Source: Apostichopus japonicus
Lineage: Eukaryota > Echinodermata > Holothuroidea > Aspidochirotida > Stichopodidae
Assembly (NCBI RefSeq): GCF_037975245.1
Contig: NC_092562.1
Location: 2,265,001-2,329,000 of the forward strand
Length of the DNA stretch: 64,000 bases
Direction of reading: 5' to 3'
Positions 6,817 to 53,746 of this stretch are shown piece by piece. Each line of letters begins with the position of its first letter. Positions within the stretch are counted from its first letter, which is position 1. Below the pieces are notes generated by a model that had not been told where the DNA came from, searched no databases, and saw nothing but the letters and a program-made list of their open reading frames with translations. The position numbers and the translations under genes are program-made.

Positions 6817-7107
6817 AATGATTTTCGATACAAATGATTTTCGAGTTGGATAGCATCATGTTTGATCTCTAGAGTAGGGCAAAATATGTCACCAAAAACA
6901 GAACTAGTATTGTTCGATATAGGTGACAAACGCCTACAGTGGAATTACGATCTTCCTTACCGGTTTCGAACCTCTGGACATACAATCAGCGTCCATAGCC
7001 TAGTGGTTAGGGTGTCCGCGTACAGAGCGGGAGGCCCGTGGTTCGAATCCCGGTGGAGGCTGAAAGTTTTTTCACTGTTCTTGATTTTCCAACTCATTAC
7101 GATTTTC

Positions 7108-23054: not shown

Positions 23055-26000
23055 TCATTCGTCCCAAGGACTCATATCTGCATCAATAGCTACGCAGTTA
23101 TAGGCGGCATATCGAAGTTTCTCCTCTGCGATTTTCACACTGCGGGATTTGAAAAGGATTAAACGTTTCAAACCGTAAGTCATGAATTGAGCGAGAGGAT
23201 ATCGAATTTGGTAAGAGTAAATAATAATTTCTAAGGGGATGAAATTTACAGTGAGATGGATTAATCGTGATCATTATATAATGCATGAATACCACAGGTG
23301 TTACTGTGATGTTGGAAAAATATCAGAAATCATACTTTTTCTGTTGTAGTAATTCAAATCTTTCTTTCATAACGTTTTTTTGTTTTGTTTTTTTTGTACA
23401 TCAGATGGGCAGTCAGATTTAGAAGTTAACAGAGTGCCTATACTTCTTGGAAGGATGCATGCCAGGGGTGAGATGGGTGCAAATCAGGGGTAAGCTGGGA
23501 AGGTCCTAAACCCTGATTACATAGTGGTCTAGTTTATATCATGAACCTACCGTTAATATTTCGTTTTCATTATTTTCGGCCTGGCAATGAAAAACTAGTC
23601 GAAGAATTGGGTTGGATTGGAACTATGTGGCGATACTACAGTGCCAAGGAAACACAAATATTAATTTAAACAAGGAATGGTCAGAGGTCATTCCAGAAAG
23701 TACTTACTCTGAGTAGCTTGGGAGGAAAAGAGTATTGGTGCAAGTCGAAGATTCTGGCAAAATGTCTGTCTTGCCTCTGAGAATGAAACGAAATAAAATG
23801 GCACAATGAGAGCAAATTTAATAACAAATACAAATATGCAATGAATATGCAAATAAGATAATTTTAGTAGCCTTAAAAGGACTTATCCAGCAGATGTATA
23901 CTGGGATGTTCAGGTGTTTACAAGTCTCCAATGAATATGGAAATCAATCCCGACTTTACAATTTAAGATTTCTTCCCAAAGTTGGACAGAATATGTCTGA
24001 ATTTCACAATCTCATCATAAGTAATTCTCTAACTTGGTCAAGCTGTTGATACAACCAAACCTAATAAAGTCATCAATCAAGACTTACAGACATTTTCTAG
24101 AACTGTTCTATTCTTCCTATTAAACTCTTCCACAGCAAGCTTCAAAGTGTTTAACTGTTTTGTCTATCTTGAAATACATGACTTTGCAAGATTCTTTACC
24201 ATCTGTCCGATCATAGCATGACCAACCTAATATCCACAAAAATCATGTTCATTTATCATTTTGGATAAGGAGCTTATCGGTAACATTGTCTCCCAGAATT
24301 TTAAGAGTACAACATTGACCTTCAGATAAGACTTGTTTTGGTTAAAGGTATAGGATACGCATTACAACCAAATATAGTTGAAAACACTTAGAGAATCCTG
24401 GAAAGAATCATGGACTTGGACAAAGACTGCTTCTAACATTGTGTCAGGAGGTTTAAAATCCAGTCTCTGATTGGCTAAAGCCGTATCGACTGAAACCTAT
24501 CAAGGGTGTTTTTTTTTCTTCCGAGAATGGAAAGATTTCAACAATAATCTTACTCTTTATCGGCACAGATGTACAGGGGTGTCGGTAGACGTCTTCTACC
24601 GGTGACAAACCTCAGAAACCTACTCCTATCCTCTGGAAAATCAAATTAAAAGATGAATAGGTTTTGCATATTTCTGCTTAGCATTATATTATATTAAATA
24701 GGCAACGGTCATTGAACTATTGGCTATTCACACATTTAAAGTATGTCAGCATGTTACAAAAATTTTTTTGCTCCATTTAAATTCTGAAGTTTCCCACACA
24801 GCTCTAAACTTATTCCAAGACTTTTTGAAGAGTTAAAAAACAAATATTTGACAAGAGGACATTCTCGTCAATTTGCTTTAAAATATGATTGTACATGATA
24901 TAGTGGCAGTTGATGTGTAGACTATAAAGTAATACATGTTGCAAGTTGAAAACTCCATTCAAAATCATCTTTCTCAATCTTCATAGACTTAATTGCATAA
25001 AGATGACTCTATTTTACCACATAAATTTGCCATAATGACAACTGGCAGTAATCTGTGATGTTATCACAATAAATTTTACAAACATTGTTTTACAAGCATT
25101 GTCAAACATTTACAAACATGTACATACATTTACAGACATTTTACAAACATTGGCAAATTTTACAAACATTGTTTTACAAGCATTGGCTAACATTTACAAA
25201 CATTTTACAAACATTGGCAAATTTTACAAACATTGGCAAATTTTACAAACATTGTTTTACAAGCATTGGCTAACATTTACAAACATTTTACAAACATTGG
25301 CAAATTTTACAAACATTGTTGTGAAGTTTTCATTTAATGTGTGATACATTTGCTTTAATAGCTGACATACGAATGTATCTCAAGAACAAACAATTCGTCA
25401 ATAAATACTTTTTTTTATATTTATGAAGTATTTTATTGTGAATGGATGCTCTCTAACCATTCATGATACTTCAAAGAGAATTTATACCTTAAATTTAATA
25501 CATGCCACCAGGATACAAACTGTCACATTTTGATGTTCTATATTTAGTTTTAGTTATACAGTCAATTTTTTAACACAAAATTATCCAATTCAGATATCAC
25601 AAAGAGGAACAATAGGCTGAATATCGGTAAAAGAAACTACAGGCTAGAGCTAATTTACTTTTTTGTTTTTAAAGCACATTTGGCTATGATAACAATGAAT
25701 TGTTAGCTCCCACATAATTTAATATAATACCTTCTGATAGACAGGACTGTATAACAACTTCAACTCTAGAAAGGTGAGTTTATTTGGCAGTATGAATTGT
25801 AAAGTTGTCAGGGTAGCAGGTACATCGAATATGGCCATGCATGTAGCTGATATAAATGAAAAGTCTCACCGTTGGTAAAATTACCGAGGGCTTCCCAAAA
25901 CATCTTGACTCTGGTACTGGACTGTTCTAGATCTTCTAAAATAGCTACAGAAAAATAACCAAGAAAGAAGAAATATTTTTTTAATTTTGTGTAATATTGC

Positions 26001-29000
26001 AAATCGTGCTTGTCATTCAACTTGTAAATAATTCTTTTGCAATAAACTGAGTGGTTAATGGGTTGTACAGCATAGTACAGTAGATTGCTTAAATAATGGG
26101 TTGGAATCAATCGATTAACTAAGGTGAATTTTACCATTGCAAATAATTATTCAAACTGATTCAACCCACTTTATTCCCTTATTAAAAGGAGTAACATCAA
26201 AGAACACAGAATACCCAAACAGAGAAGTGACAATGGAAAATGTAAACGTACAAGCGTGTTTGCATCATTCTGCAGTAATAAATTACCATAGTTACAAGCT
26301 TTCTGGATAAAAATGGAGGTCTTGACAAGACAGTGTTCACTTCCTTTGACAGTGAACTTGAGGAAAGTGGCATCAACTAACAACCAGAAGGTAATCGTTA
26401 CCTATAATGAAGTATAAAAGAAACTGACTCTCTGGACAGACGACATCTTTCGAAAAAAAAAACAAAAAAAAAACAGACTTACTTGTCTTCAGTAAAGCTT
26501 CCACACTGACGTCAGGATCGCCACAGATTTTGGTCTCTAACTCCTGCCAGGTCAAGAGGTCAAGAACAGCCTGTGGCACGACCTTGAGCAGTCCTTTCCT
26601 CAAGGCTTCGATCTGCACAGATGAGAGAGAATCAACTAGAATATTAAACTGAATGCAGATGGTACCTATAGCTGTCGGCTGACGAGTGGAATATTTCATA
26701 TACGTTAAGTGTCGTGTCACACAAACAACTTTGTGCTAACATAATGTTTTCTTCACGATTTCAATCCGTCCCACGGACATTCTGCAGAGTGACTAATCTC
26801 GATATTACAGACATTCTCACAGAATACGATTATCGATGGTGACAAGATCCTTCCTGGGAAAAACTCAACAATTATGACATTCATTAATCGTGGGTAAATA
26901 TTTGCCAACTACACGTCTCAGGGATGTAAGTGCAGCCAAAAAAAAAAAATCCGGAAAACTATTCGGAGAAACCGGGGGAATGCCGTTCTAACACATCCTA
27001 CTCCTAGCTCTGAATACTTACGCACTATCGTTATGTTAGGCTAGCTCAAAAGTATTAGCGCTAACACATCCTACCACTAGTTCTGACTACTTACACACTA
27101 TCGTTATGTTAGGCTAGCTCCAATGATGTACAGTGCAATGCGATGTGTAACAGGAAATGGTATTTTGGTTGATCGGTGAGTGAAAATTGAAGTTAGCTTG
27201 CTGCAACGGGCCAGGCATTTTTGCCGCGTTGTGTCTTTGATATTTGTACAATTTTGTGGAACTTTATTGGAATTAAAAAAAAAACGGATTTCCGTAAAAA
27301 TACGGAAGACTTACATCCCTCAAAAAAAAACCCGGATTTCCATAAAAATACGGAAGACTTATCATCCCTGACGTCTTATATCAAATGTAGCGGTTTTCCA
27401 ACTATAGATCCTTCATGAACCTACGGGTGGAATTTCATATTTTTTTTCAAAGTGAGGATCACACTTGAGATTGGATATGCTCGTAAACTAGACTATTACA
27501 ACAGAAGTAGCTTCTGTCCCAAAGGCTATAAAATCAGTTTCAGTTAATTTAAATTCTAAAATGTTTTTGGAAGAGACAATATATACAAATCATATCAAGA
27601 AACGAAAGAACAAGTGAAAAGACATTATGAATGAAAGAAAATTAAGTTCATATGTACAGATGGGAAAGTAAAACAAAACAATATTTAATCAACCAGGTAC
27701 GAAAGTATGTTTAACATCTGAAACTTTCACTATTTCTCTCAGTGTTGATGTTTTCAGATGTACATGACGAGAATAAGTCCATTAACCAAAGGTTGCATTT
27801 TTCAGCTCTCTTGACCTCAACTTACTGAAACTTTATCTCTCCTGCAAACAGACTGGTGAGTTTGGAAGAGTTGTTCACACCTTGCCATGTCTGCCTTGAT
27901 CCGATATTGATTTGGCTACTAGCTGTGTGAAGAGTTGCATAATAGACGAATAGGCATCTCAACTAAGATGCGAAAAGATGGGACTGATCATTCAGCTAAC
28001 CAACTGGGAAATATCTGCCATTCAGTACAAACGGCAGATTTTTGGATGCAACCTATAGCCAATGGACACTTTCGCGGCATGTCCAACACATATATATCAC
28101 CTTTACCAAATGAAACACCTTATATTTTTCCTTGTCCAAAGGTGGGCCACCCATGTTATAACCATTAAGCATAAAAATCTAACATAAACAGGCCAAATAA
28201 CAATATAAAAAACAGATCAACAAATCATTTCTTGCTAATGTCTTTCTTAATACCTGTTTCTTGCTTTCACTCATTCTTGTAGTTTCCACCATCTTACAAT
28301 ATTCGATTCTCTCATCAAAGTTCACTTCCACCGGCGCTCCAGTTTCTACCAGTTCGACCAGACTGTCACCGCTGAGGGCCGTCACGTAGGTCAGTTGTCC
28401 GGCAAAATTGGCCTGAAAGGTCTCTTCGTCCACAACGCGAAGGTTGTTCACCAGCTTCACCTGATGACCAAAACAAAATGAAACTATTTTCATTAAACAA
28501 GCATTAATACACTGAATCGATTCAGGCATCTTTAACGAGATGAAATTGATTCAACAAATCTGAACATAAGAAAAGGATTATTGTAGATCATTTTAGCTGA
28601 TTTCAATAGCCCATCAAAATGTTTCCTAACAAATTTAGTAAACAAACGAATAAATGGCAAATACATATTTTATTTGTAATGTTCAGAATATAGATAATCA
28701 TCAAATATGGCTAATATACATTTCATAGGTTTGCAACGTTTATAGGTTAACATAGAAGTAACATATCACAACATAAATGAAAGCCTCCTTCTCTTTTCTT
28801 GGAGGTGGGGGGGGGTGGGGAGCTGTAACTGTCAATTGTAAACCAAATTCAAAGTTTATATTGAAATGATAAAGAAGACTCTGAGGGTGGGAGGGGAGAG
28901 TAGGGAGGGGCAGGTATAGAGGAGGGGGTAATTGTAGGGAGGGTAGCAGAAACCTTCAGTCTATCACTACACAGCGAATTTAAACTTCACCATTCATCAT

Positions 29001-32000
29001 CATGTTTGCAAAGATTTAAACCCACCGCTGTGGCATCCACAGATATAAAGTCTCTAGTCCAGGTGACTTTCTCTCCGACCAGTTGCTTCCATATAAACGG
29101 CGGCAGAGACAGAACCTGTGATGAGATATGATAAAAGTCTTCGATTGGAACAGAAATATAAAACTATGTATTTAATCAATTAGCAAAGATGCAGTATCTT
29201 CATATTTCATCATAATCTCTCTTCACCCGGGTGTATAAATGGGGAGATTTAATCATGAGCTAACTATAGTTGATTGTGCAGGATAATGACTGCGCCGTAT
29301 GAGAAGTCCGCCAGGGCATCTGTGGATAAGGCACGCTGCATTACCCCTGAAGGGACAGCTTGACTTGTGCACACACAGGTGTGCGGTATGACAAATAAAG
29401 TCATGTGAGAAGGTCTTGATACAGGACTAACTACTGTTTTCAGATTTCTTACATTTTTTTTTTTTTGTGTGCATATCTTCCCATATTTCTTACATTTTTA
29501 TATCCATACACATTTTTTTATATATCTTTACATATTTTGATAAATTTCTTACTCATATTTATGACGGAGCAGGAGGAAAGTTCTAACTTTAGATGTGTAA
29601 TATTTCTATACATTGGCTGAATAAAAAAATTAATGGAAATTGATTGATTGATTGATATATATATATATATGCTATATATCAATCAATCAATTAATATCCA
29701 TTCATATTTTTAGTCACAGGTTCAATCAATCCATGAACCGTGACAGTTCAAAGTTTGAGCTTTGACCCAAACTGGAAATACCTCATACCCAATCGGAATT
29801 GTTAATCATGATATTTAGGAAGAAAGCTTACCAAATGCTCCTTGCCCCGGAGACAACCTCCCATTAGCTGGCCGATCCATTCAAACTTCACAAACTGCTG
29901 ACACAGTGGATTGGGCACGTAGACGTCACGGTTCACGTTAGTGTCTCTGTTACTCTGGGAGATGAGATGTATCGACAACATATGATAATCAGAAGACATA
30001 TAATCACATAGTCCACACTCAGATAAAGAGTGATACTATAAACATGGTACTTCTCTGCATTACTTCATAAGGTCTGATTAAATAATAATTATTATAATCG
30101 GTATCTTTTCACTTTATATACATCACAGGTCTCATCTGGAAGAAACTTTAGAATTATAACTAAACTGACAATTTCAAACTACACAAATGTAAGTTAGTAA
30201 ATTAGTGTGAAGTCTTGCATGGAGTTTTCTTGCTGCTTATTTCTGTTAAACTTTCCATCATTCAAATTTGGATTTTGCTCTTAGTTTATTCGTGTCAGAG
30301 TGCACGTCTATCGACGTGATTCTTGAAGATAATGTCTACATTTTGACTTTCCTCGAATAATGAAGCACACTTCTGGTGAGAACGTATGCAATGGAATCGG
30401 TAACTTTCACAAGTATAAAATGTTCTTACAAGGGCAGAGATCAAAACTAGGATTCATCTAAAAGTTATTGGAAAATCATAAATACCTGGTTAGGAGATCT
30501 GACGAAGAATGGAAGAGGTATCAGAACATCTCCTTCTGTGGGACACAACTCCTCGGCCATGTCCGCTAAACTGTCTCGAAAGCCACCACCTGTGGGTGAT
30601 GATTATTCATGGAAAGGATTTCGAATTAACGCAATGATCTCGAAAAATTAACAGATGGGAAAAGAAAAAGTCCTGCCTGGCAAATAATATAGTATACCAT
30701 GATGACAACTTATTATGAATCTACCATGTTGCCTAGCTCACACTACAATGTGTAGCCTTGTTTTTTGGGCAGAAAGTTTCATTTTTTTTTCCAGGTATAA
30801 ACCCAAGTGGGGGCTAACCAGGGTTGATCTCATAATGATGTACCCATGGTAACCGTGAGTGAAAAATTTGTGATGAAATATATACCCATCTATATGCTTT
30901 TTGTCAATTCCACTATCAAACATACAGTATGTCAAAGAGAGGATGAAATAGAAGGAAAGAAAAAGAGAAAAAACTGTGGCTTAATGATCGGCAAAGAGAT
31001 AATTTACCTTGATCAATGATTCCTTCTGATAGAAACTTGCACTCCCACCATTGGTCAAACTGTTTAGGCCATCTGAAGTCCAGCTGTTTAGCATATTTTT
31101 CCTTTGGCTGGAGACCATCATAGACCTGTAGTATAAAGGATATATATGTATCTGTTGGACTGGTAGTGCGAGCTAGCGCAGTAGAATGAGTATGCAGAAC
31201 AGATAGAATTCCCACTAGATATGAATACTAATACCAGGCACTAGACGTGAGTATGAGTGTGCACTACCTTGCTCTATCATCCTATGTTAAACAGATCTCC
31301 AAACTGCCCTGACTACGAGTACAAGAACAACTCCACGAGGGGGAGACTGTCAGTACAGAAAGCTATGCAAGATCGACACACTACAATTAGAGTCTGTGCC
31401 GTGACTTACAACTACTATCAATCATTTGTATAAAGCAAACAAGAAAGAGAAAATCTTCATACCAATTTCTATTCCAAACAATTCGAACGAGAGAAGAAGT
31501 CTTCGTAAGTTTATGGCAACATTGGACTAATAAAACTACTTGATGAACACTGTACCGAACCAACAGAAATATAACAGGAGCGCTTAGTAGCAGAATAATG
31601 CTCGATTGCTCGGTTTATTATATGGTATGGTATGGCAGAGCACAGCATATTAATAGTGTAGCCATAGTACAGCATAGTATAGTACAGGATAGCACAGTAT
31701 AACCTGGTTAAAACACTGGCTAAAACAGGACTTTGACCCTACTCTTCACAACACTGACTATAGTCAGTGTTGTGAAGAGTAGGGTCATAGAACACTATTA
31801 CTACCCTATTACCCTACTCTTCAAAACACTGACTTGAACACTAATATGACCCTACTCTTCAAAACACTGATTAAAACATCACCATTATCCTAATCTTCAA
31901 AACACTGACTAAAACACTCCTACTACCCTACTCTTCAAAACACTGACTGGAGATGACTAATTGCCTTCAGATCTGCTTTCCTTTACCTGTGTGAAGATAG

Positions 32001-35000
32001 TGTTCTTTCCTGTGGGATCTTTGTTCGGTTCTTACCTGTGTGAAGATAGTGTTCTTTCCTGTGGGAACATTGTTCGGTTCTTACCTGTGTGAAGATTGTG
32101 TTCTTTCCTGTGGGATCTTTGTTCGGTTCTTACCTGTGTGAAGATAGCGTTCTTTCCTGTGGGATCTTTGTTCGGTTCTTACCTGTGTGAAGATAGTGTT
32201 CTTTCCTGTGGGATCTTTGTTCGGTTCTTACCTGTGTGAAGATACTGTTCTTTCCTGTGGGATCTTTGTTCGGTTCTTACCTGTGTGAAGATACTGTTCT
32301 TTCCTGTGGGATCTTTGTTTGGTTCTTACCTGTGTGAAGATAGCGTTCTTTCCTGTGGGAACATTGTTCGGTTCTTACCTGTGTGAAGATAGTGTTCTTT
32401 CCTGTGGGATCTTTGTTCGGTTCTTACCTGTGTGAAGATTGTGTTCTTTCCTGTGGGATCTTTGTTCGGTTCTTACCTGTGTGAAGATACTGTTCTTTCC
32501 TGTGGGATCTTTGTTCGGTTCTTACCTGTGTGAAGATAGCGTTCTTTCCTGTGGGATCTTTGTTCGGTTCTTACCTGTGTGAAGATAGCCTTCTTTCCTG
32601 TGGGATCTTTGTTCGGTTCTTACCTGTGTGAAGATTGTGTTCTTTCCTGTGGGATCTTTGTTCGGTTCTTACCTGTGTGAAGATAGTGTTCTTTCCTGTG
32701 GGATCTTTGTTCGGTTCTTACCTGTGTGAAGATAGTGTTCTTTCCTGTGGGATCTTTGTTCGGTTCTTACCTGTGTGAAGATACTGTTCTTTCCTGTGGG
32801 ATCTTTGTTCGGTTCTTACCTGTGTGAAGATAGCGTTCTTTCCTGTGGGATCTTTGTTCGGTTCTTACCTGTGTGAAGATAGTGTTCTTTCCTGTGGGAT
32901 CTTTGTTCGGTTCTTACCTGTGTGAAGATAGCGTTCTTTCCTGTGGGATCTTTGTTCGGTTCTTACCTGTGTGAAGATTGTGTTCTTTCCTGTGGGATCT
33001 TTGTTCGGTTCTTACCTGTGTGAAGATACTGTTCTTTCCTGTTGGATCTTTGTTCGGTTCTTACCTGTGTGAAGATACTGTTCTTTCCTGTGGGATCTTT
33101 GTTCGGTTCTTACCTGTGTGAAGATTGTGTTCTTTCCTGTGGGATCTTTGTTCGGTTCTTACCTGTGTGAAGATACTGTTCTTTCCTGTGGGATCTTTGT
33201 TCGGTTCTTACCTGTGTGAAGATAGTGTTCTTTCCTGTGGGATCTTTGTTCGGTTCTTACCTGTGTGAAGATAGCGTTCTTTCCTGTGGGATCTTTGTTC
33301 GGTTCTTACCTGTGTGAAGATAGCGTTCTTTCCTGTGGGATCTTTGTTCGGTTCTTACCTGTGTGAAGATAGTGTTCTTTCCTGTGGGATCTTTGTTCGG
33401 TTCTTACCTGTGTGAAGATACTGTTCTTTCCTGTGGGATCTTTGTTCGGTTCTTACCTGTGTGAAGATAGTGTTCTTTCCTGTGGGAACATTGTTCGGTT
33501 CTTACCTGTGTGAAGATACTGTTCCTCCCCTTTGGGATCTTTGTTCGGTTCTTACCTGTGTGAAGATAGTGTTCTTTCCTGTGGGATCTTTGTTCGGTTC
33601 TTACCTGTGTGAAGATTGTGTTCTTTCCTGTGGGATCTTTGTTCGGTTCTTACCTGTGTGAAGATACTGTTCTTTCCTGTGGGATCTTTGTTCGGTTCTT
33701 ACCTGTGTGAAGATAGTGTTCTTTCCTGTGGGATCTTTGTTCGGTTTTTACCTGTGTGAAGATAGTGTTCTTTCCTGTGGGATCTTTGTTCGGTTCTTAC
33801 CTGTGTGAAGATAGCGTTCTTTCCTGTGGGATCTTTGTTCGGTTCTTACCTGTGTGAAGATAGTGTTCTTTCCTGTGGGATCTTTGTTCGGTTCTTACCT
33901 GTGTGAAGATAGTGTTCTTTCCTGTGGGATCTTTGTTCGGTTCTTACCTGTGTGAAGATAGTGTTCTTTCCTGTGGGATCTTTGTTCGGTTCTTACCTGT
34001 GTGAAGATAGCGTTCTTTCCTGTGGGATCTTTGTTCGGTTCTTACCTGTGTGAAGATTGTGTTCTTTCCTGTGGGATCTTTGTTCGGTTCTTACCTGTGT
34101 GAAGATAGTGTTCTTTCCTGTGGGATCTTTGTTCGGTTCTTACCTGTGTGAAGATTGTGTTCTTTCCTGTGGGATCTTTGTTCGGTTCTTACCTGTGTGA
34201 AGATAGTGTTCTTTCCTGTGGGAACATTGTTCGGTTCTTACCTGTGTGAAGATAGTGTTCTTTCCTGTGGGATCTTTATTGGGTTCTTGTCTATGTTCTG
34301 ATGCAGCTCTTCTATTGATAAATAACTTTGGTAAATGGTCTGGTTTCCTATGAAAGCAAGGGAGTGAAAACAATCACCTACAATATGAACAAGACCCAGT
34401 TTAATAGTTATTGATTTTGCTAATTTCATATGATACCTCACAATTTGTCCTTGACAAGGAAAGCTGCTACAACCTGTACCTGTTATCACAGGTAAAACAC
34501 AAGAAAAAACACACATAAACACACAACTGTCAATTTTGGAATCGATTTCAAACATAAAAAGGCAAGTTTTCACATGCATTCATCTATCAATCGGAAAATA
34601 ATGTATCTATTTCAGTATTGCAAAATGCTATGACTTTTTTACTTTCTAATCTTGAAATCTTTCAGAACAACTGCACAAGATATAAAGCATAAAACCCAGG
34701 CTTTTTGAAAATGTCCGGCTTACCCTGCCTCCGACTGGGTCAAGAAATGCTGGATCAGGCTAATTCTCTTCTTGGATAGTGGAAGAAACTGCCGTACCAT
34801 ATCGAGACAAGATCGGAAGGAGCCGAGGGAATACTCCCAGACTGGAACTATAAAATGGATCACACTGTCCAGGAGTTTAGAAAATCTATAATTAAAAATA
34901 ATTAAAACAAATTTTAAGCAAGATTTGAGGATGTGTATATGGTGTCATAGAGGTGTAAAACCAGGGTACCAATAATATGAGATAGACCCCCCGCTTTAGT

Positions 35001-38000
35001 TAAAAGTTTCATCTCAGTCAGTAAATATGACAGAATTTTCATTATTTTGCAAACTATAAATTCAGTATTTGGACACCTGGTACGGTGTCATACTTGGCAT
35101 GTACTGACATTGTAATGACATTACTGACTCCCTTCTTTGCTGTGAGCAAAGTTGGGAAGAAATTTTGCATGAAATTATGACACTGTTGATCTAGCATGCC
35201 TCAACCGATTTTGAAAAAACAAATTGTGACTGACCTTCTTATGACTAAAATAGTCATAGGGTTATATTTGTTTGCACACAAATAATGTCTGAATTTTGTT
35301 TAAGAATATATGCGCTTTTCAATTTCTTCTTTATCAAATTTTCATGCTTTACCTGAAATTTCCGTACATTAATACAAATCTGTGATATTATTTAAAAGCT
35401 CAATGCATCTGTCTTTCAGGCATATTACCATGTGACTTATGAAAGATTCCGTGTTATGGAGCGGTAAAGCCCCCACACAGATTGATGTATTTGACCACGG
35501 TATACCTGTGGTTTGAAGACAAACATGCATCTACAGACTAAAACATAATGCCTTTAACCTTTGTGTTGTAAACTACCATTAGCTACTACGGTGAATCTGA
35601 TACAGATAAGCGGAACATGGCAATATCAATAATTACAAATATTAAAAAAATAGAAACTGCTCACCCCAGATGAATCAAAGATAATCAACAGAAAACACAG
35701 CCAACGGTAAAATTATAGATTTTCTCACATCTAAGCAAGATTACTGAATACTAACAGTTCTAATTAAGTGCATTCTTTGTTTCCCGGCTGGCGGGGGATT
35801 GTAAGTTGCAAAACCTCAAAAGTCGTGGTTTTTCAAACAGAAGCATATTGCACAGAAACATATTCCCAGACAAAGCTTTTCCATACACTACCTTAGCAAC
35901 ACAAGAGCTCTGTGGTATAGTTGATCCTGATTAAAGGCTTCCAGTCTGGGATACCTGAAGGAAATATCAGAAATAAAGATTAGACGGTGAAAACAGTTAA
36001 TGACTAATTAAAGCTGTGCTTTGTTCTTGTAATTAACAAAAGTGTTCGACTATTGGTCGGCATAGCACTGATGTAGTACATGGCAGCTAGTGCTGATCCA
36101 ATTCTGAAAGAATTACATTTGAATAATTACAAATCAGGACTTGCAAGCAGCTTAAAATAAAAATGAGAGATGGTTTTGAGATTTTTTCTGTGGTTTTTCA
36201 ATAGTTTATTTCTTTGGAGTGGTTTGATCCCGATTAAAATCTTCCAGTCTGGAGAATCTGAAGGAAATGTGGTAACAATTAGAGCAAACTGTTTATGAAA
36301 AATTAATAGCTAGTGTCTTGTTTCTTGCAATTTACAAATGAGACTTTGCCAAGATGTAAATGATGTATCAACTTCTGAAGCAAATCGAATTACAAATACA
36401 ACTTGCAGTGAGGTTAAAAAAAAAAATTTAAAACTTGGTCCAATATTTTTGGAAAGGATTTTTTTCCCTGTTATCTTTGGGAGCGGATATGAGGTCGGTT
36501 GAAAAGGTATTTTTGGTGTGAAATATGGCCAGGATTTCTCATTGCTGTCGCTAAATATTTATCCAGTCCACCTACGAAAGAGTATTCAGACCAAATCTTA
36601 AAACTTAGAGCATTATCAAACATGGCAATATTGTTTAACTCACTGACCTGACAAGTTCTTCCTTACAGAATGTATCTTTCAGTAGCCCAAGTTCTCTTTC
36701 TTTCAAAGATTTGATTTTAATACCGTGTATCCTGGTATCAACACCATCATCTGTAAATTAAAAATAAACTTCTCCAATTAATGGTCGTTATAAGGTCTTT
36801 TAATCAGCAATACTTACAAAACCAACAATTGGCTTTTAAATAAACAAACACAAAAATGTAAAACATATTTTATAATTAGATGCAAAATTTAAAAAAAAAC
36901 CGGAAAATATGTATGATAATGCTAATGAAAACCATTATGGAAATTTTGTATGGCATATAAATTGCTGCATAAAATTACATTGACTTTTAAAAAAGTGATC
37001 AGGAGAAAACACAACCAGTAACAATGAAACATGTTAAAGTAAAAGAACATGTATGTATTTGTATGTATTTTAGATCCTCCTGCAAGCAGGAACTCGCGAA
37101 GAAGCCATCATTGGCTTATCAAAGCCGCAAGCTGACCAAAGTCAGTCTCTTACATTAAACGTCCATGATTATGAATTGTCAATTGTCAAGAACTCTGTAA
37201 CTGGACAACATACATTAATCTTGTAGTGACTCAAACTCTGGACCTTATGATTGGAAGGCACCAGCGTCATCCACTGAGCTGGAACATGGACCAATGTGGA
37301 ACATGGACATGAAACATGGACCAATGGAACATGGAACCAATTTAAAGGGGCTTTCACACACCTATATATACAGTATAGGTACTATATGGGTGAAGTTAAC
37401 ACGTTTGGTCACATTTCACCACTAAAATTACATATTAAAACATATCCTACCAGAGTCACACCCAGTCTATAGTAGTTGGTACTCATAACTGGCATGACTT
37501 GAAAGGTGGAATAATTGTATCTAGTCCAGGTTTTCCCTAACTTTATCTCCCCACGAACCCCCTGTGGATGTCAGAGTTGTCCATGAACCCCCAACTTTTC
37601 GAGACACGATCTGAGTCATTATTATACTATAATACTCCCAACAGTGCTTCGTAAAGGTCAAGATCATAGTGTAATATTGTTCTGTCATGCGTACACTAAC
37701 TTCACCAACGTCATGCGGCCTGTGTCTGTTTCATAATTCAGTCATTTATCACATGCACGGTACGGTACTACTATGGCAACATATGCGTATGGAACGCAAA
37801 AAGAGTTTGTTGATAGGTACAACTTTTGTACATTACTAAATTATATGATATATCGGACTTTAACTAGTACAACACAAAATACTCTAGTTTTGATTTTCAG
37901 AAACATCTCATGCACCTCATGGGGGTTCTAGTCCATTGTCTGCCCATACTCCAAGCTAGGCCAGCCAACAGTATTCTTGGGACAATATCAGAATGCCAGG

Positions 38001-41000
38001 TACAGACACTGATACTGAACACTATTAAAGACTAACAGTACAATGTGTTAGGCAGATCACACAGTATTTTTTGTGTGAATTAATGTAATTAAGTAGACTT
38101 TGAGAAAAGCTGCACTAGAAGCAGGAACCGTTTTTATCGTGCGACTTTACAATGACGAAAAACATTTCTTAACATAGGCTTCATAATATAGAGCATATTT
38201 ACTGTAATTAAACAAATGTCTAAACTTTGCATCAATCTCATGGCTACAATGTTTTTCTTTATTCATAGAGTAAAAAAGTCAAACCCATTTTTACCTTCAC
38301 AGGATTTGATTTGAATTTCGATATAAGCATAAAACTTTTTCACATCTTCGAGAACACAGTAATCACCGGTAAATGACCTAGAAGTAAAGAGAAAACAGCA
38401 TAACAAACTGAGTATCATTTTGATGACTTTATTCCTAGTCCCAGATATCACCAGTCACAGATATGACTAGTCAAAATAAAATAAAACTGTTAGTAAACTG
38501 CTTATCCACTAGAGAGCCTGTGTAATAGAATGTGTAAAAGTAAGTTGGCCTGACGTTATGACTAGACACAGATATGACTATTACAGATATATCCACAAAT
38601 TCTGGTCTGTCAACAATTACTGGGTAAAACCTGGCAAACTTACTGCTCGATGTGGACATCATTCAGCTTCACCATGACATCCAATTCCCCGCCCATCACG
38701 ATAACATGGATCGGCATGTAGTTGTCATCATGGCAGTCTACTCCAATGTAGAGTTTCCTGTTGAGATGGCAAGTAACATTGAGAAGTATTTATCAACATT
38801 TTGGTGCGTGGGAATTGTTAAGACTCTTTTTCTATTTCCTACTTTTATCTCTTAGGTACTTTGTATTAAAGACATCATAAATCATATAATATGTAATTAA
38901 GACATACGGTATGGCTTATATACAGCATAAAGGTATACAGTATAAATTTAAGCATACTGTGTGATATGTAACTGCAGTGGTACGCACTTGCAGTTTTTTT
39001 TGTGCAAAAGTTTCTCAAACACAAGTTTAAATCTACACAGAGTTGCAGGATCTGTCAAGAACAAAGTCACATACCACACCTATCAAAAGTGGTGAATAGT
39101 TACTAAACAAATTGGATCATACTTCTTAGACCACATATTAACTTTGAGAGATTAGTGTTAATTTGCAGGTTTAATCTATCCTTTAAAGTTGAGTGCCTCC
39201 ATGTATTTGCTTGCAAATGGAATTTTTGTATTTATAAATGAGAAAGATCCTGCTTGCATCAAAATGTCAGATCCACTATTTAAACTGACCAAGTGGACAT
39301 TTTTGGTTTTGAATAGAAGAGGCCCCTCAGGAGGTGAGGGGAGGGGGGTGGGGGTGGGGGTTGTGGGTAGAGTTGTCCATAAGAAAGACAATCTTCTTTG
39401 ACAACAGTATCTGTAATGTTAGTTGAACAACGGATTTGATTTTAGAGACATTCGTTTCTCATTAACCAATTGATGGATTTCCACTTACTTTACAATGACA
39501 CCTTTCCTCATGGTCAAACGGATCCAGTGTTGTCCCTGCCTCCCATCACTCTCCCAGTACGTGCTTGGGTCGCTGTCAGTGAGGCATGCTGCACTTTCTT
39601 CATCCTACAGCGAATAGGGATGCATAAAAGCAATAGTTTTGCAAAGAAATATCCCAGTGCTAATAATAGCTTAATATAGCTAAAATATTAAGAGATCTGT
39701 TTCTAGTTCGGAATGAACTTAAAAATAAAAAAACCCTGAAGTTATTATTGTGTATCCATGGAGGTAAGGCCACATGACTCACTATGACAAGTTTGTACTG
39801 CTGGACTGTAACTTAGCTTTGTATATTAGTGTAAGATTCAGTTCCTGTTGGAGTCTCAATGGAGCTTGGGAGGCCATTCTCTTTTTGTTCAAGATTGTTA
39901 CAAATTTTACATCTTTTTGTCAAAATCTAACATTTCATCAATTGGCAATTTTCTGCATTTTGAGAGCTTTCATAAATTAGGCAAACATATCTTCTAAGTC
40001 AACATATTTAAGAAACTAAGTAACACATTAAATGTGAAGAAAGCAACAATTTCATGGAAAAAAAATTCTCAATTTTTTCACGACTAATGTAAGCACAGAC
40101 CCACATTCCACTGACTAGGTTCACTTGAGTTTAGAGACCTGTGCAACATTTGATAGAAAAGCTACAACAGTAAGTTACGGCATAAATGTCTCTGTTCTCA
40201 AACTGAGTAACAAGCTGGATGTTATAGCCATGGTTATGTGAGGTGTTTATACAGTATCTCATATGAGAGTGTTGCAAGGCCACGGACGAGTAATGTAGGC
40301 CATATGTATTTAAGTTTTGTTCTACGCTACTGTGTAACGCAACAGGATAACAATATGTCCTATTGCTGGATGGATGGTGGATGATGCTTAACACATAATG
40401 GAAACAACGCCAAGCAACGCTTTTTAACCAGTGCCCGAAAATATATTTTCACAGAGGACAGGAACTTACCCAGCTGGATGAAACTGCCACTGCTTCCACG
40501 TACTGCTTAACGTTGCCTAGTTTCTCGTTCTCTTGTACCACGTGTTCGCTGAGAAATTTGACCATCTCTTCATCGCATTCGATATCCCAGTTTCCGGGGA
40601 CTTCCCGTAGATCCTTAACAGCTTCATCATCGGTCGGCTGAATCTTTACTGGGTCACCTAAGGTCAAACTGTACTTCACTTCGATAACTTGGTCCCAACT
40701 TTTGAAGAAAGGAAGGATATATGATGGGTCATAAAGATAGGTCATCTGACACATTGCTCTGTGAATACTGTAGGTCACAAAGACCACAACCATCACTGGA
40801 TTGTGCCATTAAAACCCCTTGTTCCTTTGCATAATTCCTAAATAGCATCTTTAATACCAGAACACCAGTTTGCGACACTTAATTCAGGGCTTTTCTTTTT
40901 TCTTTCTTCAACATCTGGGAACAATTTCTTTGCTCCACACTCTTCAAACTTTAATGTTACTTGAGACTTAGCTTAAAAATGAGTCCCCTGTTTATCTTTT

Positions 41001-42947
41001 TACACATACAACAGATCATACTGCTAAATACTGTTATTCTTCTTAGAAGTAAGCTGGGTCATGCACTTTTCCTGTAAAATATGTGTAAAGCATTATACGT
41101 CAATAGCTAATATTACTGTAGCTATGAGTGTTTGAACAGTACATCAATACTTTTTGGAGTGGCATTATGGGAGAAGGGAATTCAGTTCCTCTCAGATGCC
41201 CCCCCCCTACCCCTAATATTCCCAACTACAGGCAAGTCATCTTAATAGATGTTTGCACCAATTGCAAACAAGTAATATGCATTCAACAATGTACCACTAG
41301 TCTTTTGTCCCCTGGAAATTGTTCATAGTATGTATGCCTGAAAACTCTATTTATTGTTTCTTCAATTTAAACTATTTGAAATTTGAAATCCATTTGTCAG
41401 TTTGATATATCTGCTGATATCTGACATATATGCTATACTTTCATGATATTTTTAGTATATGAAATGGTATTGAAAATATTGATTAATTCACAAACTCAAC
41501 CAGCTGCTTGAACTTTGTTGCAAGCTCCGACAGGGTTTTGGTAAATAAGAAAGACTCTACAGTATATATGTATTTAATATGCTCATGTCTGTTACAATTA
41601 CCGATCTAAATGTTTCTGACTTCTGCCATACAAATATTCATGAGCTGGTGTTACTTTATCAGGAACTATGCGGTGAAATTTGGGGGGATCATCTGCACTC
41701 GTCCTGCTATCAAAAAGAATGATCCAGCCGTCCGTGGTAATCGTCTTATTAGGAAACAGTTTCTGCAGGAAAGTCTGAAAAATATATAGATAAATGAAAT
41801 ATGGGATTAAGTATTACCTGAAAACATTATAAAGAGGTGATAAGCCTCATAGCCCAGGATTGTTATTAGGCCATTCATTATAAGGATTGTCACTGTTTAA
41901 CATCTCACCCAAAGTGGACTTGCTTGGTTATTGGATTTCTTCTAGTGTACGTGAAGAAGCATTGAATTAGAGGATCAAGTGTGGAGACCCTATGCAATTT
42001 GTATGCCATTTGGCAATTACAGTGAGTTCACTGGTCTTTATTCGAAAAAGACTTTCATTAAGGGCATTTAAGACTCGCCCCAAATCGCGTGCGGCCATCT
42101 GAAAAAGTTAACTTTCCGTTGCCTTCAAGTGAAGTTTTTATCTTGTTGCTATAAAATGCAGTCAGTACTTAATGAAATGTGATACCTTGTTATCTTTTAT
42201 GTGGACCTGAGATGCCCATCGCTGTATGTAGACTGTGTTGTGGCTATTGACCAAAACTTCATGCATTGACAGTACACTAGTGTCTAATTATTGACGTTAG
42301 CAAGCTGTGTGTGTATTTTCTGGGATCGATGGTGGTGTCTAACACTTCTGTTACACCGAATGAAATGTTTCTTTGTGCGCGAGTCTTCAATGCCTTTAAG
42401 GTACAGAAGTATTGAAACAAGCAATAAGCTAAAATACTCCATTTGAGCAGCACCAAACGGCTACAACACTCCCCCAATCTGAATAACGTTAGTAGAGTAA
42501 CAGGAATCTGCTCCCCTATATTCCCACACCCCCCACCTACCTTCTGACCCCATACAAATAAAAAATACAGAACAAAACCCAAACTCATCATCAAGTTTAA
42601 TTACAACATATGTGTTTATAACTGACCTGTTTAATTTTCATCCACTGTCCAGCACTTGTGTAAACTTCTTCACCACTTCCTTCAATTACTGTATCTTTCG
42701 TAGAATGAAATGACCCTATAACATGTCTTGACTTCTTCCCACTCACTTCATGTTGGTTTATGTTAACAGGCTGTGAATAGACCACAATCTTCTCCCCGAG
42801 TTTTGTAACTTTGTACTGCAACTGTCCGGGTACGTAGCAAAATGCCTCGGGTAAGGGTAATGCAGCATGAAACTTTTGTATACATTCTTGTAAGCAGCGG
42901 ATCTTTGCTAAAGTTACTCTACTTTGAGGGCAGACAGGTGAAATCAT
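23055..42947 (-). CDS. HECTD3: HECTD3-type E3 ubiquitin-protein ligase
   Basis: Twenty coding exons join in exact phase. In transcript order: 42627-42947, 41602-41774, 40470-40698, 39489-39604, 38644-38757, 38295-38377, 36648-36750, 35892-35954, 34724-34885, 34242-34347, 31008-31125, 30486-30589, 29832-29954, 29026-29115, 28254-28460, 26483-26612, 25870-25944, 24554-24632, 23708-23776, 23055-23139. They encode 849 residues; vertebrate HECTD3 has about 860. The start ATG (42945-42947) has an in-frame TAA just upstream. Landmarks are a DOC/APC10 substrate-recognition domain (about 220-355) with [19 protein letters not shown], then [38 protein letters not shown] and a C-terminal HECT domain with [16 protein letters not shown]. 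Its Cys811 is the thioester cysteine, and the end [11 protein letters not shown] is typical. HECT ligases take ubiquitin from an E2 onto this cysteine and pass it to substrate; mammalian HECTD3 substrates include caspases and MALT1. Intron 10 carries a 46-copy splice-donor satellite. Confidence 0.96.
23708..23776 (-). CDS. HECTD3: HECTD3 exon 19, active-site cysteine exon
   Basis: A 69-nt exon with acceptor CTCAG and donor GTAAGT encodes [20 protein letters not shown] plus YS. The cysteine in SSTC is the HECT catalytic residue (Cys811 in this model). Family context and position near the C terminus make this a confident call. Confidence 0.93.
25072..25321. repeat. Tandem repeat of TTTACAAACATTGGCAAA units
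   Basis: About 250 bp built from ACAAACATT-based units (ATTTTACAAACATTG, TTTTACAAGCATTGGCTAAC), with a higher-order period of roughly 80 bp. It lies in HECTD3 intron 17. Long reading frames over it are repeat artefacts. Confidence 0.88.
26919..27370. mobile_element. Small inverted-repeat element with ACGTCT flanks
   Basis: The left end is CAGGGATGTAAGTGC. The right end, read inversely, is CAGGGATGATAAGTC. The hexamer ACGTCT directly abuts both ends (26913-26918, 27371-27376). Inside are poly-A/CCGGATTTCC motifs and a duplicated segment of about 74 bp (26987-27121). No transposase. It lies in HECTD3 intron 15. Confidence 0.55.
29218..29400 (+). repeat. SINE 3'-tail-like fragment
   Basis: It begins CTCTTCACCCGGGTGTATAA, matching the tail portion of the SINE at 17960-18325 read on its own sense strand. 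The rest is diverged. HECTD3 intron 13. Confidence 0.45.
29618..29712. repeat. Imperfect palindrome around a TA run
   Basis: TTGATTGATTGATTGATATA is mirrored by TATATCAATCAATCAATTAA across a short TA core. Weaker pairing extends to AAAAATTAATGG / CCATTCATATTTTT. It could extrude as a hairpin. HECTD3 intron 13. Confidence 0.7.
31711..31950. repeat. 38-bp tandem repeat (CCTACTCTTCAAAACACTGA)
   Basis: About six units of roughly 38 bp share CCTACTCTTCAAAACACTGA. One unit is inverted, creating the perfect palindrome at 31734-31787. The array sits directly beside the splice-donor satellite in HECTD3 intron 10. Confidence 0.85.
31734..31787. repeat. Perfect 54-bp palindrome
   Basis: The left arm starts TGACCCTACTCTTCACAACA and the right arm ends TGTTGTGAAGAGTAGGGTCA, with GACTATAGTC at the centre and no loop. 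All 27 base pairs match. It arises from an inverted unit of the 38-bp array. Confidence 0.95.
31985..34284 (-). repeat. 49-bp satellite made of the HECTD3 exon 10 end plus its 5' splice site (47 copies)
   Basis: The unit on the coding (-) strand contains AAAGATCCCACAGGAAAGAA then CTTCACACAGGTAAGAACC: the last ~40 bases of exon 10, the exon boundary CACACAG|GTAAG, and a short link. Copies run head to tail with a 49-bp period from the authentic boundary at 34241/34242 to 31985, a distance of 2255 bp. That is 46 periods plus one base, explained by a 50-bp unit near 33520. So there are 46 intronic copies plus the genuine one. Variation is confined to a few positions (CACTATC, CGCTATC, CAGTATC, CACAATC; GATCCC or TGTTCC), indicating recent expansion or homogenisation. 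Every copy appears to keep CAG|GTAAG. Confidence 0.95.
36207..36264 (-). pseudogene. Decayed duplicate of HECTD3 exon 8
   Basis: On the - strand, CCTTCAG|ATTCTCCAGACTGG and then AAGATTTTAATCGGGATCAA mirror the real exon 8 (35892-35954; CCTTCAG|GTATCCCAGACTGG and AAGCCTTTAATCAGGATCAA). The acceptor survives, but the donor and the exon's 3' half are gone. Flanking intron sequence is also similar, so a block of about 300 bp (roughly 35880-36180 and 36180-36480) was tandemly duplicated. Confidence 0.75.
37068..37283 (-). repeat. tRNA-derived SINE-like sequence, reverse orientation
   Basis: On the - strand from about 37283, CCAGCTCAGTGGATGACG resembles a tRNA A box, and GGTCCAGAGTTTGAGTC, about 45 bp on, resembles a B box. 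An unrelated body with AAGAGACTGACTTTGGTCAG follows. HECTD3 intron 6. Confidence 0.55.
37280..37340. repeat. GGAACATGGACCAATG short tandem repeat
   Basis: Four imperfect repeats of GGAACATGGACCAATG and GGACATGAAACATGG, beside the SINE head. Confidence 0.75.
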
Positions 42948-48144: not shown

Positions 48145-51100
48145 AACTTGGAAGATTTTATCGAGACAAAAGAGTCATATAGAAAAGTGCAGATCAAAAC
48201 GCTCAACACCCTTTCTTCACTGGAACTTTTTATGGGTGTTAACATTTCTTAGCCTTCATCTTTTTCTTTGTGTGAATGCTGAAGAGCAGGTGGGAGAAGG
48301 TAGGACAGTATACAGTACATATATAGTATATGCCATTCTGCTCTAGCTCAATAGAAGCTATTTTAGTTAGCATAATGGCAGCATTTAACCTCTGTCAAAG
48401 TTATCAACTCTTTATTGTTTTTTTTCTGTCTTGTATGTCGCTTGCATAGTTTCATTTAAAGGAAAGTCTCAGAGAAATGTAGAGTAATGGTGGTTGAGGT
48501 TATCTGAGGTTAAGTTAAGTTAGAGAACAAAAATTGTGTCACAAGAACCATTTCTCTGAGTTTGACAGTTGAATTCTTACTTGGTTTATGTGGCCTTTCA
48601 AACATTATGATGGCGGGCCTTGACATACTTGAACGCTAATTACTTGTTTAACTGTCTGATCTATTTGTAATGTTTTTGCTGTTTGTTTAGACTTGATCAA
48701 GTCTGTTGATGACTTCAGCTTGTGTATATTTGAATTGAGCCAATCAGTATCGTGATGTAAACATTATACTGTGTGCCTACGCTCATTAAAGCTGAGTAAA
48801 TCAAATTGGATGGAAAAGGAATATTTTCACTAGAGCTTTTAATTTTTGACAAGTTCCTCTCAGTACAGTAGCTAAGTTATATCATTTTGAATTACTTAGA
48901 TAAGTTGCCTTTTACTTCTTCCTTTGTTTTCAATGTTTCTATATCAAATGCTCACTAATTTGCATTTCGTATTTGGGCAATTTACGTACATACAGCAACT
49001 CAAGAAACAATTAACACAATTGTGATCGACTTTGCTGGATTAAGGGGAAACTTTGCAACGACAGATTTGCCACAAGAGGCAGTGTCACCCCAAAAGCCGA
49101 AAGTACCAGAGTCACAGCAAGAACCAATATTACCACAAGTTTTACCAGAAGAAACATCAACCACCTCTCCTGCAGTGTATCAAGGTATGTTAACTCAGAA
49201 TTAAGGGAAATCCATTCTTTTGTTTAAAACAGCTACTGTAGTCACTGTATGCAAATTACAAATGTATGTCTGACTTTTGCACTGAACTGTTAATGTGGCT
49301 CCAAGGAACCTCAACAGAAGGCATTCTCACATCATATCCTATCTAGTTCTGCGATACCGACAAGTAGCAATCGTTGAGTCTAGATCCTATAAACGAGACC
49401 AGGAATGATCACTACTAGCAGATGAAATTTGGTGAGAAGGTATTGAAGAGATTTCTGGAAACGTATTTTCGCAGCGATCGTTTATAAGCTCACCAAAACT
49501 TGTGTTTCTGAAGTACTGTTTATCGTTCTGCTAAATTGAAGAAGTGGAACCTTGAACTTAGTCAATCACCCAGCAATCATTTTGATTATCCTAATCTGAG
49601 AGAAATATGTGATTTCACTACACAAATTTCTCATGCAACAAATTTAAGGTGATGATTTGTTGTTTCATTTTTAAAGTTTGTGCCTGTATCTTCACCGTTT
49701 CTGGTTCCATTTTGAAGAACTCACTGTAATTGAAATGGTGAAGATTAACAGTACCTTGTCTTTCTTTTAACGTCCACAACTGGTATCACCCAACCGCCAA
49801 GTAGCAATCGTGACCAAGTTAAACAAACAAAATTGCAGCGGTAACGATGACTCCTGGCAGCATTTTGGTCACAATACTGCTTGTCATAGTCCAAGAGAAA
49901 GCATTTGCTGGAAGGTATTAGAAAAAGAAAGATGGGTATTTGGATGTTCTGAGAATTCAGATTATAACCAACTTAAGGCCTGAACAACTAGAACATCTGA
50001 ACAAATCATTTTTACTGCCATGATGGTGTGTGTGCATTTGGACAACTCATCAATTAATGTACCAGAATTGGTCTTGTCATTTTTGTGTTTTAAATTGCAG
50101 CACTGCCCGAAATCATCCGCTCACCAGAAAACCTGACCGTGTCGATCGGAAGCCGTGTAACACTGCGATGCATGGCTACGGATTCTGATCAGGAGATACT
50201 CATCACCTGGTATAAGGGGGATGTAGAACTCCACCAAAATTCGTCTTCACGTATAAGCCTCAAAGGGCAAAGGTTGCAGGTCACGGACATTCGGTGGGAG
50301 GATAGGGGAATCTATTCATGTGAAGCAAGCAACAAGGACGGCCTCTCCGTCAGGTCTTTCCCCGGACGTCTGAACGTGGAAAAGTCTGTCGTCATCTTGA
50401 AGGGCATTCAGAACCAAACCGTGACCAGAGAGACGGTGGTCAATTCCACGTGCCAGATTGAAGGTTATCCGGAACCAGACATATTCTGGGAGGTGAACAA
50501 GATCCCTTACCAAGATCCAGTCACCAACAAACTGTATAACAGACAGTACTTTCTGTATCGTGCGCAGCGCACCATCAAACTGACCTGTAAGGCCTTCAAC
50601 AATGTGTCGACCGTCGGTGTGAGGCGACGGCAGAGCAGCGGGGTCATCTACGTGACGAACCCTCTGAGCTACTGCAAGGACTACAACGGCTACAACTGTC
50701 AGTCTTACGGCTTTGGTCAGGTCTTCATCAACGGTAGCTTGGACAACCCTACAGGTAGCTTGGAGAGGATGGTTACAAGCTTTCTGGCAGACATGGACAA
50801 GTTGAAGATACCGTCGCACTGTAAGACGGCCTTCAGATCTCTCCTGTGTCATTCGGTCTTCCCTGCGTGCGACCGAAGAGATCCCGAGAACCTCAAGCCC
50901 ACGACCGTCTGCAAGTATGTTCATTTGTAGATCTGTCATTACAAGAAAGATCTAGTCTTCACATGTATGTTTCCTCAGGTCAGAGGTTAGCTCTAGGTTA
51001 TAAAATCACCTGAAGTACCAAAGTACTAATAACTGTTTGATAACAGGGAGAGAAACTTGGTCATACCATGATTACATCAACCTACTGTAGTTGAAAAGTC

Positions 51101-53661: not shown

Positions 53662-53746
<85 letters not shown>

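Follow-up and report, generated by a model that had tools for sequence, protein, structure and literature searches.

The stretch analysed here (the window) comprises 64,000 nucleotides of the sea cucumber Apostichopus japonicus (NC_092562.1, positions 2,265,001 to 2,329,000) and contains the HECTD3 gene on its minus strand. Intron 10 of this gene begins with a minisatellite whose 49-bp unit spans the exon/intron boundary, as is characteristic of the minisatellites called mirages. The relevant features are as follows, in window coordinates and with a slash marking the splice junction.

23055..42947 (-), HECTD3 coding region, 20 coding exons and 19 introns, 849 aa, from a model guided by the database protein P0001
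34347-34242 (-), HECTD3 coding exon 10, 106 nt, phase 0 end, its last 45 nt being the source of the repeat unit, from the model against P0001 and 9r85
34236..34244 (-), genuine 5' splice site of intron 10, CAG/GTAAGA, junction 34242/34241
34241-31126 (-), HECTD3 intron 10, 3116 nt, from the spliced model against P0001
31983..34241 (-), 46 additional repeats of the 49-bp unit, occupying 2.26 kb from the start of the intron
33746..33754 (-), weakened decoy donor, CAG/GTAAAA
33506..33555 (-), divergent 50-nt copy (copy 15), with CCCAAAGGGGAGG replacing CCCACAGGAAAG
31981..31989 (-), last array donor, CAG/GTAAAG, the presumed ancestral intron start judging from the duplication geometry
31806-31948 (-), 38-bp tandem repeat in intron 10, 3.8 copies according to Tandem Repeats Finder (TRF)
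31735-31786 (-), perfect 52-bp palindrome in intron 10
31008..31125 (-), HECTD3 exon 11, 118 nt, acceptor CTACAG/GTC, from the spliced model

TRF placed the array at 31983-34288, with a period of 49, 47.0 copies, 96% matches and a score of 4288, the highest of all 49 TRF rows of the window. On the minus strand, the unit consists of GAACCGAACAAAGATCCCACAGGAAAGAACACTATCTTCACACAG followed by GTAA, which are the last 45 nt of exon 10 and four intron bases. Cutting at the exon-end motif TTCACACAG yielded 47 donors, with first intron bases from 34241 (genuine) down to 31986, and neighbouring donors were 49 nt apart in 45 of the 46 spacings and 50 nt apart in the other. The donor CAG/GTAAGAACC is present in 45/47 copies, the exceptions being GTAAAAACC (33751) and GTAAAGGAA (last copy, 31986), and 44 of the 46 downstream donors (decoys) are identical to the genuine donor over twelve bases. 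When the assembly (671.6 Mb, 35 contigs) was searched with a 101-base array probe, at least 20 places were matched, all within the HECTD3 array. At Rfam gathering thresholds the array had no match, and the sole match in the window was a tRNA.

The host gene was identified at the protein level. P0001 (HECTD3, Apostichopus japonicus) was the top database protein match for the window gene, and the spliced model differs from it at 3/849 residues. P0001 reads FTQ/VYDGL without insertion, so the array is exactly skipped. In addition, the joined exon translations (374 aa, assembled by hand) matched HECTD3 in PDB (9r85_A, E 6.8e-149), with an alignment free of gaps across the FTQ/VY junction of exons 10 and 11, and Pfam found a HECT domain in the same translation (7.9e-34). 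The array is therefore carried by an otherwise intact protein-coding gene, as mirages are, judging from the 849-aa model. Intron 10 is the longest of the 19 introns, the remaining ones measuring 266-1641 nt. About 860 nt would remain without the array, so the intron is probably older. Further along this intron, the 52-bp palindrome and the 38-bp tandem repeat resemble each other in sequence.

Splicing from each of the 46 decoys to exon 11 was simulated. The stop falls in exon 11 for decoy 1 (+49 nt) and in exon 12 for decoy 2 (+98 nt), and for the 44 others (decoys 3-46) it lies within the extended exon 10, where the third added unit contributes TAA. The premature stop was more than 55 nt upstream of the last junction in 46/46 cases. 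Judged from these reading frames, the full protein is predicted to be obtainable in one step from the first donor only. The initial annotation, made from the letters and their open reading frames, had described the end of HECTD3 exon 10 and its donor as repeated 46 times at a 49-bp step, with 47 nearly identical donors, frame effects of +49, +98 and then a TAA in the third added unit, and disruption by every decoy. Gene, exon number, repeat geometry and frame effects were all borne out by the TRF result, the guided model and the simulated splicing.

A donor position weight matrix (PWM) was built from the 18 other HECTD3 donors, which were themselves scored leave-one-out. The array donor scored 10.58, higher than all 18 of them (2.4-9.4), and its pairing with U1 was also stronger (-11.0 kcal/mol, against -5.3 to -10.3 for the other donors). 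The last-copy donor CAG/GTAAAG had a PWM score of 6.59, exceeding 6/18 of the others, and a U1 pairing of -8.3 kcal/mol. In the simplest reading, this last copy preserves the original intron start. A segment straddling the boundary, with 45 nt of exon 10 and the intron bases GTAA, would then have been tandemly duplicated and later expanded to 47 copies. The initial duplication would have fused GTAA with GAACC, supplying a G at position +5 and turning the mediocre donor GTAAAG into the very strong GTAAGA, while the exon-side copy would not have been worsened.

The relationship between exon and array was compared in 45 copies (the exon copy and copy 15 excluded). At two exon sites, CCC and AAT, the exon's base is absent from every array copy. 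The array has G in 44/45 and A in 1/45 of the counted copies at the first site (CCG, once CCA) and C in 45/45 at the second (AAC), and the 50-nt copy 15, which stands outside this count, likewise reads CCG and AAC. None of these changes alters the encoded amino acid. The pattern would fit a separation of array and exon after which the exon stayed under purifying selection, two sites being few for such a comparison. Because the exon-copy bases are absent from the array at both sites and the intron start of the last copy differs, the array appears, from these few sites, to evolve in concert internally with its edge copies excluded, which is another feature of mirages.

In one alternative reading, some transcripts might use decoys, gain a stop and be degraded, such that the copy number would act as a rheostat setting HECTD3 output by unproductive splicing. 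The position of the premature stop in all 46 simulated transcripts, the twelve bases shared by 44 decoys with the genuine donor, and a donor that outscores the gene's 18 others are in keeping with this idea. Selection on the decoys was looked for in the variable columns of the unit, which numbered 1/9 in the donor and 8/40 elsewhere in HECTD3 (44/47 copies; copies 0, 15 and 46 dropped), and 0/9 in the donor and 8/45 elsewhere in a second array, in KRI1, described below (26/27 copies; copy 16 dropped). It was rejected: variation in the donor columns is not significantly lower than in the other columns (pooled Fisher p 0.29), so there is no sign of selection on the decoys. In addition, unrelated genes carry the same structure. 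A rheostat is therefore an improbable explanation of the array.

The units might also serve as acceptors. An intron of 49 nt is very short by general standards. All 47 copies end in CACACAG directly before GT, and a unit (GTAAG...CACACAG) could in principle be excised as a mini-intron or re-spliced, correcting a decoy choice in a manner resembling recursive splicing. The unit acceptor scored at most 2.89, whereas the 18 real HECTD3 acceptors have a median of 6.94; it outscores 3/18 of these, but 12.6% of 707 background intronic AGs match or exceed it. With a strong donor and a weak acceptor, the array does not have the composition of a recursive-splicing ratchet point. Very weak regenerated sites were reported to be re-spliced in Drosophila cDNA constructs, which act without the exon junction complex, but this complex normally prevents such re-splicing (PMC8184009). 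Repair of a decoy choice through the unit acceptors is thus possible but unlikely, and we assign it a low probability.

The reported U1 footprint of 35 nt (23 + 12; PMC6002489) is below the 49-nt step of the array, so all sites could be filled simultaneously. The array could then be a U1-binding platform that guards the transcript from early polyadenylation or keeps it in the nucleus, and the nine donor sites that were folded are fairly open. However, the intron is short (3.1 kb) and nothing in the data calls for protection, which makes such a platform very improbable. Masking of the decoys by RNA structure was also considered and was rejected, as donors 0-8 fold alike.

Variation among the same 45 copies was limited. 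A linked pair of columns differs in 4 copies, three adjacent columns vary in 8-10 copies each, no unit carrying more than one change among the three, and four further changes are each confined to a single copy. The four unit types defined by the three adjacent columns are intermixed along 31983-34241 without repeated blocks. Such mixing is unusual for growth by block duplication. No higher-order repeat was found in the array (p 0.21 for the maximum, at lag 10). Pairs of recurring triplets of unit types numbered 8, compared with 16.9 in shuffles, for the four base types (P 0.007) and 6 compared with 8.6 for the full types (P 0.27). Recurring pairs of 4-mers were absent, with shuffle means of 4.2 for the base types (P 0.028) and 1.7 for the full types (P 0.23). 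This lack of recurring 4-mers could result from a collapsed repeat, which would speak for an assembly artefact or a wrong copy number. Against this, the units differ from one another, the spacing is regular, the flanking exons are in order, the assembly has only 35 contigs for 671.6 Mb, and similar structures occur in other genes. We therefore regard an artefact as a slight chance, and the copy number could be off from its true value.

Similar arrays were searched for in the whole assembly with two patterns, and the counts are valid for these motifs and spacings. Pattern 1 (three CAGGTAAG with gaps of 28-56) gave 290 + 169 matches (459), against 104 + 94 (198) in the reversed control, these being overlapping matches and not arrays; among the matches listed (C1, and C2 to about 28.05 Mb) they fell into 6 arrays. 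The stricter pattern 2 (three CAGGTAAGT with gaps of 22-52) gave 59 + 2 overlapping matches (61), against 21 + 27 (48) in the reversed control; all 61 fell into 6 arrays. Eleven distinct donor-bearing arrays were examined, the KRI1 array being common to both patterns, and two of them (L040, L042) have the same unit. Homology placed 4/11 arrays at coding exon/donor boundaries, namely those of HECTD3, KRI1, MON1 and VPS39. The arrays outside HECTD3 that lie or probably lie at a coding exon boundary are the following.

L043 (G000:C2:28044501-28054000), 4410-5881, KRI1 donor array, 54 bp, 27 copies, 27/27 donors reading CAGGTAAGT, exon peptide matching Kri1_C (7.9e-29)
L039 (G000:C1:13104001-13113500), 4202-4827, MON1 donor array at the 5' end of the intron, 32 bp, 19.1 copies by TRF
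L039 (G000:C1:13104001-13113500), 5097-6188, MON1 acceptor array at the 3' end of the intron, 7 copies of about 157 bp
L075 and L079 (G000:C8:23172301-23177500), VPS39 donor array, 56 bp, 12.6 copies by TRF, Vps39_1 match over the junction (3.2e-19)
L078 (G000:C17:903901-906300), 1446-1952, C17 array, 56 bp, 9 copies, following a 51-codon open frame between an acceptor and a donor

In KRI1, a stop lies immediately past the donor in the exon's frame. The MON1 array keeps CAG/GTAAG at 11/19 GTAAG sites, and MON1 in PDB was matched across the junction (1.8e-17); the exon alone gave 4.6e-07 in PDB and 0.0009 in Pfam, the latter failing the cut-off. At the other end of the same intron, the beginning of the following exon is present in 7 copies 153-159 bp apart, of which the last, exon-side one is coding and the others lie upstream of it; the AG of the acceptor is kept in 5/7 copies and absent from 2/7. 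In VPS39, CAGGTAAGT is kept by 8 of the 12.6 copies, and the exon taken by itself was matched in neither Pfam nor PDB. The exon-side donor there (GTAGGT, U1 pairing -13.4) is further from the consensus than the decoys (GTAAGT, -13.7). The C17 array is a probable fifth mirage, its 51-codon exon having no match in Pfam or PDB. The other 6/11 arrays (L040, L041, L042, L074, L076 and L077) are not at a coding exon/donor boundary, as judged by eye from the upstream bases, which for L041 were 140 bases only. Two of these, L074 and L077, seem to adjoin exons on the opposite strand that are presumably TRNT1- and RanBP1-like. L076 (G000:C9:2046001-2048200, continuing to about C9:2049917) is an array of donor-bearing 45-bp units that extends over about 2.4 kb, and no coding exon was seen in the 400 bases upstream of it. 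Rough arithmetic from base composition, approximate gene and intron numbers and the presence of CAGGTAAG in 1/19 HECTD3 donors indicates that about a third of the genome's CAGGTAAG words may be real donors. Therefore, special targeting of splice sites need not be assumed.

Two further features of the window lie outside HECTD3. The Rfam tRNA match is at 6989-7061 (47.2 bits) and is flanked by long TA repeats. The plus strand has open frames at 50094-56741 whose translations contain a tyrosine kinase as well as Ig-, frizzled- and kringle-like segments and are presumably ROR-receptor-like.

The anatomy of the array, its gene, the frame consequences and the presence of such arrays in further genes of the same assembly are established. 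On this basis, the HECTD3 array is likely to be a mirage minisatellite that was seeded at a splice junction, is near-neutral, and is tolerated since exon definition uses the exon-side copy. The pre-mRNA would be spliced mainly at this first donor. In exon definition, U1 and the acceptor would be paired over an exon of 106 nt, to which every decoy would add 49 nt; because every decoy lengthens the exon, the exon-side choice is what exon definition predicts. Transcripts spliced at a decoy would carry a stop codon and be degraded, and the array itself would be selectively close to neutral. We infer first-donor use in HECTD3 and its sister arrays from protein conservation and not from RNA: the conserved protein is encoded via the exon-side copy in HECTD3, KRI1, VPS39 and MON1, which means the first donor in each gene and, for MON1, the last acceptor as well.

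Several points weigh against this interpretation. P0001 could itself be a computational gene prediction. When two donors are comparable, the intron-proximal one is reported to be favoured, which would predict use of the wrong end of the array, and how that donor gets favoured is described as not known (PMC6002489). The first donor is not set apart by its local structure, with a mean unpaired probability of 0.64 at donor 0 compared with 0.65-0.66 at donors 1-8 (9/47 donors folded). Mirages probably account for 5/11 of the donor-bearing arrays, including HECTD3 and the probable C17 array, a share that has no matched control. Finally, the first duplication and the putative ancestral donor are reconstructed from the sequence of a single genome.

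A bolder proposal would combine three elements: splice-junction minisatellites as a recurrent, young class in sea cucumber genomes, a HECTD3 copy-number rheostat in which 46 U1 sites divert transcripts to degraded decoy junctions and output varies with array length between individuals, and an exon-side copy that is the correct one at both ends. We consider this combination speculative and unlikely to hold as a whole. If it were true, these genes would be natural counter-examples to the intron-proximal-donor rule.

It is an open question how a cell settles on a single 5' splice site when the neighbouring ones are equally good. The suggestion of the initial annotation that the array is a natural test of splice-site competition is sound: with 45 donors that agree in twelve bases and follow one another at nearly constant 49-nt intervals, HECTD3 is a natural experiment on the choice of splice site, and KRI1, VPS39 and MON1 are additional natural arrays in the same animal, one of them at both intron ends. 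RNA-seq junction counts would give donor choice as a function of exon distance, and individuals could be compared for array length and expression.

Among known systems, the human interferon-induced 6-16 (IFI6) minisatellite, the subject of a 1995 paper, reportedly has donor-like units after the real exon end that provide several splice donors. Its unit is said to be 12 bp and frame-preserving, with the first few donors used, whereas the HECTD3 unit is 49 bp and frame-shifting. The array shares the juxtaposed AG/GT with recursive splice sites (ratchet points), but its acceptor part is weak and its copies are many. Tandem duplication of AGGT segments is an established model of intron gain, as reported for the Rogers model, ATP2A1 and the 24-bp repeats of fission yeast (PMC4974935, PMC3443670). 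There too, a duplicated exon piece with AG/GT creates pairs of splice sites; however, the HECTD3 duplication probably took place at an existing intron and enlarged it, and no new intron is shown.

The closest counterparts are the mirages of lancelets, reported as minisatellites of exon/intron boundaries at Adh3, the globins BflGb6 and BflGb9, TnC and PGBD5 (PMC3087553, PMC3902484). According to these reports they affect both boundaries and differ in length, show somatic instability at Adh3 and apparently leave splicing undisturbed in the tested cases. They run counter to the initial annotation, to which no described satellite with a splice-junction unit was known, and the arrays of KRI1, MON1 and VPS39 show that the HECTD3 array is not unique in its own genome either. 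Like the reported mirages, it has a boundary-spanning unit in a coding gene (49 bp, compared with 10-72 bp at Adh3 and 150-160 bp in the globins), and both boundaries are copied here as well, at the MON1 intron. It differs in belonging to an echinoderm, in having 47 copies where 6 and 3 are reported for the two haplotypes of BflGb6, and in that 45/47 copies keep one donor, stronger than the presumed ancestral donor. A search of an open-licence library for such arrays in echinoderms or sea cucumbers retrieved papers, one on the Holothuria glaberrima genome among them, whose titles and abstract openings mentioned none. The HECTD3 array is not a new kind of element: it is a long mirage, probably near-neutral, in a genome with several, and it adds an echinoderm to the lancelets in which mirages were described.

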